From Carboxylicivirga sp. (GTDB lineage Bacteria; Bacteroidota; Bacteroidia; Bacteroidales; Marinilabiliaceae), in the NCBI GenBank assembly GCA_025210475.1, contig JAOARW010000121.1, positions 62,001 through 126,000 of the forward strand: a stretch of DNA of 64,000 nt. The letters run 5' to 3'. Positions 52,816-57,919 of this stretch are shown piece by piece. The notes below the pieces were generated by a model that worked only from the letters and a program-made list of their open reading frames with translations, was not told the DNA's origin and searched no databases. Made by a program: the position numbers and the translations under genes. How positions within the stretch are numbered: the first letter of the stretch is position 1; the number at the start of each line of letters is the position of its first letter.

Positions 52816-52877
52816 TTAGCTTCAGTAACAAATGAATGTTCCGGCCAGAATAATTGTCTAACTTAAAATCGACTGTC

Positions 52878-53471
52878 ATGAAAGCTTTAACAATTATACC
52901 AACCTTATTAATTAGTTTACTTATTTCTGTTTCAACTGTTGCTCAGAGGCAATCACATCGTCATCACCAAAGAGCTGATGAGCGAGTACGTTGCGAAAAG
53001 AACAGAGTTTATGACCAAAATACATGCAATAAGAAGGATCATTACACACATCGTTACCATTCGAATCATTATAAAAAGCCTAAGTATAACCATAGTCATT
53101 ACAATAGCTGTGATCATCGTTCAAGATGCGATGTAAATAACCGTCGACATTATAAACAACATCATTACAAGCATCACTACCATTGTAACACACACGATGT
53201 TTGTTCGCGTCGCTATATCCGTCGATTACCTTCGAGGCACTATGTGAGTGTTCGCTATGGAAATGATGTGTTTTACTATTGCGAGGGTTTGTTTTATTCT
53301 TTCCAACCAGATTATGGCTATTGGCAAGTGAACCTGAAAATACCTGTTGTCAGATACCGACCACAGCATTGTCAAACACGAATCGTAAGAGGCAGACATT
53401 ATTATATCAGTAATGGCAGTTATTATTTGCCTGTTTCCAATGGCGAATATCTTGTTTGCAGAGTTTATTAA
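52878..53471 (+). CDS. Secreted His/Tyr/Arg-rich protein, DUF6515-like
   Basis: A 197-residue protein with a signal peptide (MKALTIIPTLLISLLISVST, then VAQ). Residues about 25-120 are exceptionally rich in His, Tyr, Asn, Arg and Lys with several Cys (for example HYKQHHYKHHYHCNTHD). The C-terminal part has short repeats of the DUF6515 kind: RLPSRHYVSVRYGNDVFYYC, EGLFYSF, then GRHYYISNGSYYLPV. His clusters suggest metal binding in the periplasm or at the surface. I chose ATG 52878; the longer frame begins at TTG 52854. A sigma-54-like promoter lies upstream. The function is unknown. Confidence 0.75.
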   Translation: MKALTIIPTLLISLLISVSTVAQRQSHRHHQRADERVRCEKNRVYDQNTCNKKDHYTHRYHSNHYKKPKYNHSHYNSCDHRSRCDVNNRRHYKQHHYKHHYHCNTHDVCSRRYIRRLPSRHYVSVRYGNDVFYYCEGLFYSFQPDYGYWQVNLKIPVVRYRPQHCQTRIVRGRHYYISNGSYYLPVSNGEYLVCRVY

Positions 53472-55607: not shown

Positions 55608-56393
55608 ATGAGCCAGGATCGACACGAATCAACGATAAAGGTGTTTAATGAACTTCTTAATATTATGGATGAACTTCGAATGAAGTGTCCATGGGATAAA
55701 AAGCAAACCAATGAATCGTTGAGAACATTAACCATAGAAGAAACCTACGAATTGGCAGATGCCATAATAAAGCAAGATGCGACTTTGATAAAAAAGGAGT
55801 TGGGAGATTTGTTATTGCACATTGTTTTTTATGCCAAAATTGGATCAGAAACAGATGAGTTTACGATGGAAGATGTGATTCGTTCCTTAAATGAAAAACT
55901 GATTTATCGTCATCCACATATTTTTGGTGATGTGGAAGCAAAGGATGCTAAGACAGTAGAAGAGAATTGGGAGAAGCTTAAGCTGAAAGAAAAAGGTGGT
56001 AATAAATCGGTACTGGAAGGTGTGCCACTTTCGTTGCCAGCTATGGTTAAAGCCAATCGTATACAAGATAAGGCTCGCGGTGTAGGTTTTGATTGGGAGC
56101 ACAAAGAGCAGGTATGGGATAAGGTTCAGGAAGAATTAGATGAGTTAAAAGTTGAGATTGAAGCACATGATGAGGATCGCATGGAAGCTGAATTTGGCGA
56201 TCTGTTATTTTCGGTAATCAATGCAGCGCGTTTGTATGGCGTTAATCCCGAAAATGCTTTGGAAAGGACTAATCGTAAGTTTATTAAACGATTCAATTAT
56301 CTCGAAGAAAAGACCTTGAAGGTCGGCAGAGACCTGAAAAAGATGAGTTTGGCTGAAATGGATGAAATATGGGAAGAAGCTAAGAATCTTTAG
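55608..56393 (+). CDS. mazG: MazG nucleoside triphosphate pyrophosphohydrolase
   Basis: A 261-residue two-MazG-domain all-alpha pyrophosphohydrolase that degrades nucleoside triphosphates. The N-terminal domain has CPWDKKQTNESLRTLTIEE and the metal-binding ExxE of EETYELADAI. The second domain has GFDWEHKEQVWDKVQEELDE and EFGDLLFSVINAARLYG. Length and layout match E. coli MazG. It is convergent with nothing and faces a long non-coding region. Confidence 0.95.
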   Translation: MSQDRHESTIKVFNELLNIMDELRMKCPWDKKQTNESLRTLTIEETYELADAIIKQDATLIKKELGDLLLHIVFYAKIGSETDEFTMEDVIRSLNEKLIYRHPHIFGDVEAKDAKTVEENWEKLKLKEKGGNKSVLEGVPLSLPAMVKANRIQDKARGVGFDWEHKEQVWDKVQEELDELKVEIEAHDEDRMEAEFGDLLFSVINAARLYGVNPENALERTNRKFIKRFNYLEEKTLKVGRDLKKMSLAEMDEIWEEAKNL

Positions 56394-56787
56394 CCAATTG
56401 GGCAATCGGTTTGATGCAGCATGTCTGGCATTGAAACTCCCTATTTTACTGTTTTTCGACTGATTGCATTAATTTTTTGATGAACGCCTTTATTGGGTAA
56501 AAGTGATTTAACAATATTGAGTTATATAATGGCATTTATTAATATTGCTATTTGAGGATTATTACGGGTAAGTGTCAGTTGTACAGGTGGATGTGGTGTT
56601 TTGTTATTCGTTTGAGCTTTAAATAGAATAACTCGTTTAAGAGAACTTATATATAAATGAAGTGAAAAAGTCAAGTTGTTAATCATTGAAAATAGATCAT
56701 TAATCACAAAATATCATCCGTTCGTCAATTGAAAACAACTAATGAGCTATTTGTGGGGTAAACAAAAACGAATTCACAATTCATTAG
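56394..56787. other. Intergenic region, no gene recognised
   Basis: Low-GC sequence after mazG. I see no promoter that clearly fits, no RNA gene and no ORF with coding character. A short 13-base palindrome, GAATTCACAATTC (56770-56782), lies just before the first structured RNA element and could be an operator. Confidence 0.3.
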
Positions 56788-56897
56788 ACACTCAAGGAAA
56801 CTGAAACGGACGGTTTCTTGAACACCCAACACTATTCAACATCCTTTTACCTCTGCAGCCCGATTCCAACCCAAGTGAAAACTGCAGAGGTTTTTTT
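56788..56897 (+). ncRNA. Structured small RNA element, copy 1
   Basis: A roughly 110-nt element homologous to the one at 57001-57095. It begins ACACTC, then a hairpin pairs AAGGAAACT (56794-56802) with GGTTTCTTG (8 pairs including two G-T) around the loop GAAACGGAC (56803-56811). A single-stranded stretch follows, with CAACATCCTTTT. It ends in an intrinsic terminator, CCTCTGCAG (56850-56858) with CTGCAGAGG (56882-56890) and seven T. No ORF of note is inside. Conservation of layout with copy 2 and covarying stems support an RNA gene rather than a plain terminator. Confidence 0.6.
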
Positions 56898-57000
56898 ATG
56901 CCATTATTTAATATTTATCAATGCGAAGCGTCAGTTGGTCAAAACAAATCAACGATTACCCCTATAGCAATGTATATGTAAATGATTTTGCAAAAATAAA

Positions 57001-57095
57001 ACACTCGTAATCGAAACGGACGATTACACATGCATTAATCAACAACCTTTCGCCTCTGTAGCATTCTAGCCCAAGAATAACTATGGAGGTTTTTT
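57001..57095 (+). ncRNA. Structured small RNA element, copy 2
   Basis: A roughly 95-nt element matching copy 1 in order: ACACTC start, hairpin GTAATC (57007-57012) with GATTAC (57022-57027) around the identical loop GAAACGGAC, a spacer with CAACAACCTTT, and a terminator CCTCTGTAG (57053-57061) with CTATGGAGG (57081-57089) plus six T. The stems differ from copy 1 yet remain paired. TGATTTTG at 56983-56990, one mismatch from TAnnTTTG, is placed for transcription beginning near 57001. It lies 160 bases upstream of a Crp/Fnr gene. Confidence 0.6.
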
Positions 57096-57256
57096 ATTGG
57101 ATTGACCAAAGGATTGCACCTCTGTAAACGAAATGCTTAGCCAATAATTTCGCTTTGATATACTGTGATTAAACAACTATTTTTTATAAAAGAGTTTTTA
57201 GTTTATAAAAAGAAATTCGTATGTTGGCAATTAGACAATAATTAGCTAAGAAAGAC

Positions 57257-57919
57257 ATGCCATTAAGCAGTATACTCAAACATATTCAGGCCGACGAGCA
57301 ATTGTGGAATGAAGCGATTAAACAATGTTCTTACTATAAAAGTGGTGAGGTTGTTTATGAGCAGGATACGAATATGAAACACGCTTACTTTGTAAAAAAA
57401 GGTTTGTTAAAGATATATAGGATTGGTTCCAAGGGAGAACAACAGATTGTTCGATTGATTAAGGAGGGTGACCTGTTTGGATTTCACTCATTACTTGGGG
57501 ATGAACCAGAGGTGACCGCGTGTGAAAGTCTGACTGATAGTGAGGTGTGTCTTGTGCCGGGCGAAGCTTTTAAAAAGACAATTAGTGAAAACAAAGAACT
57601 GACGGATTTACTCATTAAGAAGACTTGCGATGAGTTAAAAAACTCCTATAATTCATTGGTTGAGTTATCGCAACGAACCGTGAGGGGGCGTTTGGCTAAT
57701 CTTCTTTTAAAGCTTCAGGATTTATTTAAAACATCGGCAGATGAAGCTATTCCTCTAGTGATCTCAAGATTGGATATGGCGCGTTGGATTGGGACTTCCA
57801 AGGAATCGGTAAGTCGGTTGATTACCGAATTTAAAAATGATGGCATTATACGTTTCGACCGACGCGAGCTGATAATCACCAATAAAGAAAAACTGGAGAG
57901 AATAATAATGCTTTCCTGA
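57257..57919 (+). CDS. Crp/Fnr-family transcription regulator
   Basis: A 220-residue regulator with an N-terminal cyclic-nucleotide-type effector domain (about 20-130; EQDTNMKHAYFVKKGLLKIY, EGDLFGFHSLLGDEPEV) and a C-terminal winged helix (SRLDMARWIGTSKESVSRLI, then TEFKNDGIIRF). The N-terminus has only one cysteine, so it is not an iron-sulfur FNR. The residues for cAMP binding are not clearly kept, so the effector is unknown. It may control anaerobic or redox genes. The two small RNA elements just upstream may be regulated with it or regulate it. Confidence 0.9.
   Translation: MPLSSILKHIQADEQLWNEAIKQCSYYKSGEVVYEQDTNMKHAYFVKKGLLKIYRIGSKGEQQIVRLIKEGDLFGFHSLLGDEPEVTACESLTDSEVCLVPGEAFKKTISENKELTDLLIKKTCDELKNSYNSLVELSQRTVRGRLANLLLKLQDLFKTSADEAIPLVISRLDMARWIGTSKESVSRLITEFKNDGIIRFDRRELIITNKEKLERIIMLS

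Follow-up and report, generated by a model that had tools for sequence, protein, structure and literature searches.

Sibling Genes for Probable Small Regulatory RNAs in Carboxylicivirga and Some Relatives

The 64-kb stretch of Carboxylicivirga DNA that was analyzed (hereafter the window) carries a tandem pair of genes whose products are very probably small, folded RNAs with a regulatory role. Their family is absent from the RNA libraries searched. We consider it reasonably probable that they encode sibling, independently terminated, noncoding small RNAs (sRNAs) that are transcribed from their own promoters, act in trans, and are governed by a switch that is probably of the LytTR type. The family would be new but of an ordinary kind, present in Carboxylicivirga and some relatives.

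Two Probable sRNA Genes in Tandem

The two elements lie where the original prediction placed them, with the sequence ACACTC at 56788 and 57001, 213 bases apart. They have a common architecture, in which a 5' hairpin with the loop GAAACGGAC (56803-56811 and 57013-57021) is followed by an unpaired linker and an intrinsic terminator (table 1). Both fold as claimed, and the terminator stem of copy 2 still pairs by way of two G-U pairs; the first stem also pairs, but with one bulged G that the prediction left out. As folded, the loop is the 7-mer AAACGGA with a G-C closing pair. Fold energies of copies 1 and 2 are -25.0 and -22.5 kcal/mol (z of -2.68 and -4.03), and shuffled sequences were as stable as the native fold in three of 200 cases for copy 1 and in none of 200 for copy 2. 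The linker of copy 1 has a mean unpaired probability of 0.91 over 56820-56842. The copies score 123.7 and 91.3 bits, respectively, in cmsearch, each being itself among the copies from which the model was built. A simple terminator scan with a loop limit of 8 called neither window terminator, no -33/-7 Bacteroidota promoter was recognized by eye at the sRNA genes, and a sigma-70 scan returned three sites versus 4.0 expected.

Table 1. Features of the sRNA locus, in window coordinates
Feature	Position	Strand	Description and basis
mazG (nucleotide pyrophosphohydrolase)	55608..56393	+	Pfam PF03819; usual upstream neighbor; synteny
Putative operator of copy 1	56679..56727	+	TTAATCA, TTAATCA, TTCGTCA at an exact 21-bp period
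sRNA gene copy 1	56785..56897	+	113 nt; 5' end inferred from conservation; alignments, covariation
Hairpin 1 of copy 1	56792..56821	+	Loop AAACGGA at 56804-56810; fold and family covariation
Unpaired linker of copy 1	56822..56848	+	Contains CCCAACACTATTCAACATCC, candidate seed; alignment
Intrinsic terminator of copy 1	56849..56897	+	AACCCA inner loop and T run; fold, covariation
Putative operator of copy 2	56914..56941	+	TTTATCA, TTGGTCA at a 21-bp period
sRNA gene copy 2	56997..57095	+	About 99 nt; loop AAACGGA at 57014-57020; diverged linker; terminator 57052-57095
Crp/Fnr-family regulator gene	57257..57919	+	Pfam PF00027 and PF13545; neighbor in some species, not part of the element

By itself, GAAACGGAC is weak evidence for the window pair. 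It occurs twice in the 64 kb versus 0.18 times expected, and two occurrences were reached in two of 100 shuffles. The genome has 27 copies of it, and each of the 25 outside the window pair overlaps a stop-free frame, on one of the two strands, that is at least 130 codons long (0.8-1 kb read around each). One of these 25 sites, L016, folds into the same 7-base loop (-9.1 kcal/mol); it was rejected as a further sRNA copy, being inside a frame of at least 300 codons with no T run behind it. The loop fold recurs elsewhere in the genome; it is the whole arrangement that stands out, and only the two window copies among the 27 sites combine a hairpin and a terminator outside a long frame. Family-wide copies, covariation, and upstream repeats place the pair beyond chance.

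Covariation and Conserved Blocks

Changes on both sides of paired positions bear out the claim that selection acts on RNA pairing. Across 17 copies fitted to the covariance model (16 distinct rows), 99.2% of cells are paired versus 88.7% when shuffled. Eleven of 17 pairs changed on both sides, a count reached in none of 500 shuffles (mean of 4.0), and controls with slid partners gave 0-3 such pairs. A MAFFT alignment of 16 copies that was not fitted to the model has two-sided changes at nine of 18 pairs. Family-wide, the helix of hairpin 1 has them at six of seven pairs.

A T run follows the second stem in all 17 copies. In the 13 copies of the genus, as well as in G022b (the second copy of genome G022), the inner loop of the terminator reads AACCC or differs from it slightly, judged by eye. 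As folded, the RNAs range in length from about 91 to 118 nt. Start codons inside the copies open no frame common between copies, again by eye. The marks of a terminated trans-acting sRNA were thus found together: its own terminator, a conserved structure, and no conserved open reading frame.

The loop had been predicted to be invariant. It is identical in both window copies, but across the family it is kept in only 15 of 17 copies, being absent from G008b and G022b, the second copies of their genomes. Twelve of the 13 copies of the genus, all but window copy 2, have an exact linker block CCCAACACTATTCAACATCC, and none of the four copies of other genera does; by eye, part of the linker survives in G022a, G022b, and G339 but little of it in G040. 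Of the two copies without the loop, G008b has the linker block in exact form and G022b has one close to it. The predicted unpaired probability of the loop is 0.95-1.0 in all 15 loop-bearing copies, and that of the linker is 0.91-1.0 in 13 of these 15, with 0.62 in G040 and 0.79 in G339. The original prediction had stressed the loop; the unpaired linker and the direct repeats upstream of the genes, the latter absent from that prediction, are at least as telling.

Distribution of the Family

Homologues carrying the loop were found in related genomes by a covariance-model search, as the original prediction had anticipated. The model was built from 14 copies (G022b, G040, and G339 not among them) and matched 17 copies in 12 of 71 genomes of the taxonomic family, representing three of its 21 genera. 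The sRNA is present in nine of 14 genomes of Carboxylicivirga, that of the window (G000) included, and outside the genus in G022, of another genus, and in G040 and G339, of a third (E-values of 4.6e-7 and 3.8e-6, respectively). Five genomes (G000, G005, G008, G010, and G022) have two copies each and the others one. A DNA search (BLAST) of 60 relatives found homologues in 10 genomes, G000 included. The combined pattern of loop and linker is present in C. marina, C. mesophila, C. sediminis, Carboxylicivirga sp. M1479, sp. A043, and an uncultured isolate, as well as in metagenome-assembled genomes of Saccharicrinis sp. UBA6048, a Marinilabiliaceae bacterium, and a Bacteroidales bacterium. A rigid three-part pattern was too strict and matched only window copy 2 among the 60 relatives. 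An order-wide model search of low sensitivity matched one of 295 genomes, that of the window; because the rows listed included only three other family members and 12 candidates scored per genome, it could miss weak homologues.

The prediction that the RNAs belong to no known Rfam family held. At gathering score, Rfam 15 gave no match in the 64-kb window or in six relative loci, and a relaxed scan of 56400-57260 returned only snoR07 at 24 bits (cut-off of 44), not covering the whole element. No description of this RNA or its like was found in the literature searched, which covered Carboxylicivirga sRNAs and, judged by title, Bacteroidetes sRNAs with GGA-loop hairpins. On the strength of these searches, we regard the family as undescribed. 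The 7.4-Mb genome of the window has an estimated contamination of 5.15%, and the sRNA locus recurs in genomes with lower estimates.

Genomic Neighborhood

The sRNA genes have a steadier neighbor in mazG than in the Crp/Fnr-family gene: nine of the 12 genomes (G000, G005, G007, G009-G013, and G040) have mazG 0.1-0.4 kb upstream of them, on the same strand. In G022, the distance is about 1.75 kb, and in G339, mazG is on a different contig. The G008 contig starts 0.28 kb before the sRNA, so that the position of mazG is not readable there. When the stretch around mazG was searched in 20 family genomes, the model matched in G040 only. Within the genus, G001-G004 and G006 lack the sRNA, and in these five genomes mazG is followed by another gene, judged by eye. 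This gene encodes a His-rich protein (L123-L127) and resembles by eye the one at 52854-53471 of the window; it is preceded by TTGGCATAAAGTTTG or a near variant, a motif that we take to be sigma-54-like and that is absent from the window.

The original prediction had also linked the elements to the Crp/Fnr-family gene (crp). This gene is indeed directly downstream in the window, but the association is loose: crp is within about 0.3 kb of the sRNA in only four of the nine sRNA-bearing genomes of the genus (G000, G005, G008, and G012). In three others of the nine, it is 2.5-3.2 kb away and in G007 it is on another contig. No close crp orthologue was found in the fragmented assembly of G013, and the 6.5 kb surrounding the two copies of G022 contain no match to crp. 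These positions bear on whether the elements could be a cis-acting leader or attenuator of crp, a reading that draws on the common strand, on the start of crp about 160 bp past the second terminator, and on its proximity in the four genomes. Because the distance to crp varies across genomes, and with each window element having its own terminator and its own repeats, synteny mostly refutes this reading and we consider it very unlikely; the Crp/Fnr neighbor is incidental. The tandem pair and the presence of copies in three genera might instead suggest a terminator-like DNA element that is mobile or repetitive and has no role in regulation; a match to a known family of mobile or terminator repeats would, in the terms of the original prediction, have counted against it. 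Copy number and synteny largely refute this: one or two copies were found per genome, usually in the same place beside mazG. In light also of the compensatory changes and the conserved upstream repeats, such an element is hardly credible.

Upstream Direct Repeats and a Candidate Regulon

Direct repeats of TTNRTCA exactly 21 bp apart are located upstream of 13 of the 17 copies, with three in a row at eight. In shuffled upstream stretches, a mean of 0.012 copies had a pair (largest value of 1 in 1000 rounds) and none of 17,000 sequences had a triple. The copies without 21-bp pairs are G022a (three cores at other spacing), G040 (one core), and G022b and G339 (none). The 64-kb window has only three pair matches, all at the two sRNA genes, versus 0.10 expected. 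The triple of copy 1 ends about 58 bp before the putative 5' end and is one of four in the 7.4-Mb genome, in which the reversed control has none.

Across 17 genomes, the triple repeat occurs 49 times and its reversed control twice. In G008, two of these 49 triples overlap each other within a single simple repeat, and another also looks repetitive. The triple is absent from five of the 17 genomes (G001-G004 and G012), and eight of the 49 are sRNA promoters. Given the excess over the reversed control, the repeats, whatever protein reads them, likely control a wider regulon. In G000, G009, G010, and G011, a triple ends 69-75 bp before the start of a bPH_1-type gene (around 1500 in L094, L144, L157, and L158), as assigned by Pfam for the G010 protein and by eye for the three others. 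An ADP-ribosylglycohydrolase-family gene (Pfam) is downstream of a triple in G339 and a look-alike, judged by eye, in G008. Also recurring downstream of the repeats (L149, L173, L145, L147, and L183) are proteins of about 156-170 aa that resemble one another, judged by eye, and have an LTxEERxxLPKMGEKTLAFV-like stretch; the three that were scanned have no Pfam match.

Two further observations concern the surroundings of the repeats, both by eye. About 30 bp after them is a second common block, roughly GTGTTACG(T)TTT...TTTCTGC(A/T)ATTAACT (L164, L166, L183, L167, and L175), and this GTGTTACG-containing block is perhaps a special promoter. Triples are also found near a gene that starts MKRILLLTDFSDTARNAAMYALKMF and is universal stress protein-like, with the repeat reading away from it (L152, L153, L160, L177, and L181).

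The unit of a LytTR repeat is 9 bp, so a gap of 12 bp gives a 21-bp period, whereas PhoB-type repeats are usually 11 bp apart. In a published account, LytTR regulatory systems mostly have 12 bp between their repeats, which tend to be placed about 10 bp before the -35 element (PMC6193735), and the core bound by AlgR is given as CCGTTCGTC (PMC4064291). The repeats described here resemble LytTR-type sites in their 21-bp period and the core GTTCGTC; they stop some 50-58 bp short of the putative 5' end, somewhat further than the published position. No LytTR gene was recognized by eye beside the triple repeats. The regulator is most likely of the LytTR type, judging from period and core. That it is instead a non-LytTR protein, for example of the OmpR/PhoB type, responding to a different stimulus, is a real though lesser possibility. 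What likens the repeats to LytTR sites is their spacing and a short core, and they are further from the start than is usual, but the exact period and the core GTTCGTC fit published LytTR sites. Such a regulator would be compatible with trans-acting sRNAs.

Proposed Mode of Action

In the mechanism that we propose, each window copy would be transcribed from its own promoter and ended by its own terminator. The 5' hairpin with its AAACGGA loop would protect the RNA and/or be gripped by an RNA-binding protein, while the exposed C/A-rich linker (CCCAACACUAUUCAACAUCC), perhaps together with the AACCCA loop of the terminator, would pair with target mRNAs. The regulator of the TTNRTCA repeats, most likely a LytTR protein, would switch transcription within the wider regulon. 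Base-pairing is the likeliest mode because the linker is exposed and strongly conserved. Against it, the linker of window copy 2 has diverged, and in G040 little is left of the linker although the hairpin remains; because the hairpin persists where the linker changes, a role in protein binding may also be considered.

To look for targets, we searched 10 genomes with a 17-base pattern, wobble included, that complements a portion of the linker, allowing at most two mismatches. There were 164 matches versus 52 for the reversed pattern, and at least 12 of the 164 are the sRNA genes themselves. Sixty regions were examined: the 14 non-self matches of G000, 20 of G010, 18 of G005, and eight chosen from G007, G009, G011, G012, and G013, some because they recurred. 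The match is inside a sense frame in 42, only antisense to a frame in 10, and neither in eight. Five are within -60 to +30 of a first ATG (L218, L237, L240, L246, and L253), a number that we judge to be no more than chance; two of these five are over short frames antisense to longer ones. A match located 59 bases past an ATG of a membrane-protein-like frame is common to G010, G005, and G013. The 60 regions yielded no convincing mRNA target, and the excess over the reversed control may reflect codon composition.

The sequence ACGGA in the loop had raised the possibility that a CsrA/RsmA-type protein binds it, with another binder or base-pairing to mRNAs held equally possible; the genomes lend no support to a CsrA/RsmA-type binder. 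CsrA (PF02599) is found in none of 40 genomes, that of the window included, and in three of 14 control genomes, making a CsrA sponge unlikely. Sponges of the CsrB/RsmZ type carry several GGA hairpins per RNA; with no CsrA found and a single ACGGA hairpin in each window copy, the RNAs do not fit this type. The RNAs could still titrate a protein. In this reading, the AAACGGA loop would sequester some RNA-binding protein that is not CsrA, and the linker would serve only as a spacer or form part of the site to which the protein binds. The loop survives in G040 and G339, the most distant copies, and in window copy 2, although their linkers differ, and tandem copies behind a repeat-type operator recall the GacA-RsmY/Z system. 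However, each RNA offers one such loop rather than several, two copies have lost the loop while retaining an exact or near linker, and CsrA itself is lacking in the genomes searched; we regard titration as unlikely. A narrower version appears improbable, namely a CsrA-free counterpart of Gac/Rsm in Bacteroidota in which sibling sRNAs under a LytTR-type regulator use their AAACGGA hairpin to titrate an RNA-binding protein. If true, it would couple the regulon, with its bPH_1 gene, to global translation control. A protein with an RRM_1 domain is encoded in 16 of 17 genomes (one in each of 15 and three in G022), and none was found in G339; this protein is one candidate partner of the RNAs.

Comparison with Known sRNA Systems

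RsmX/Y/Z and CsrB/C resemble the window family in being small terminated RNAs with GGA in a hairpin loop, duplicated copies, and operator control of the two-component type. The window family differs in the lack of CsrA across 40 genomes, in the single loop per RNA, and in the loss of that loop from two copies. To our knowledge, few sRNA families of Bacteroidota have been described beyond gut Bacteroides, and their CsrA-free workings are only emerging. According to one such description, the RRM_1 protein RbpB of Bacteroides thetaiotaomicron binds sibling sRNAs and counters them, and the FopS group has 14 members in that species, of about 65 and 70 nt, that pair via their 5' end (R1') (PMC11697453). 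By that description, FopS and GibS are likewise sibling sRNAs of Bacteroidota, and the domain of RbpB is the one found in 16 of the 17 genomes here. They are set apart by description rather than by sequence: there, 12-15 sRNAs per genome of 65-70 nt, versus one or two copies of about 91-118 nt here, with the 5' hairpin first, the candidate seed in the linker, one locus usually beside mazG, and repeats upstream. Qrr, OmrA/OmrB, and the streptococcal csRNAs, treated in a review of sibling sRNAs (PMC4211561), are similar in that closely similar copies in one genome are each a separate sRNA; they belong to a different phylum and are likened by arrangement, with no sequence relation known.

Covariation, sibling copies, a usual locus, and a recognizable control site that these genes have in common with protein genes together make the trigger and the targets of these sRNAs testable in culturable strains.
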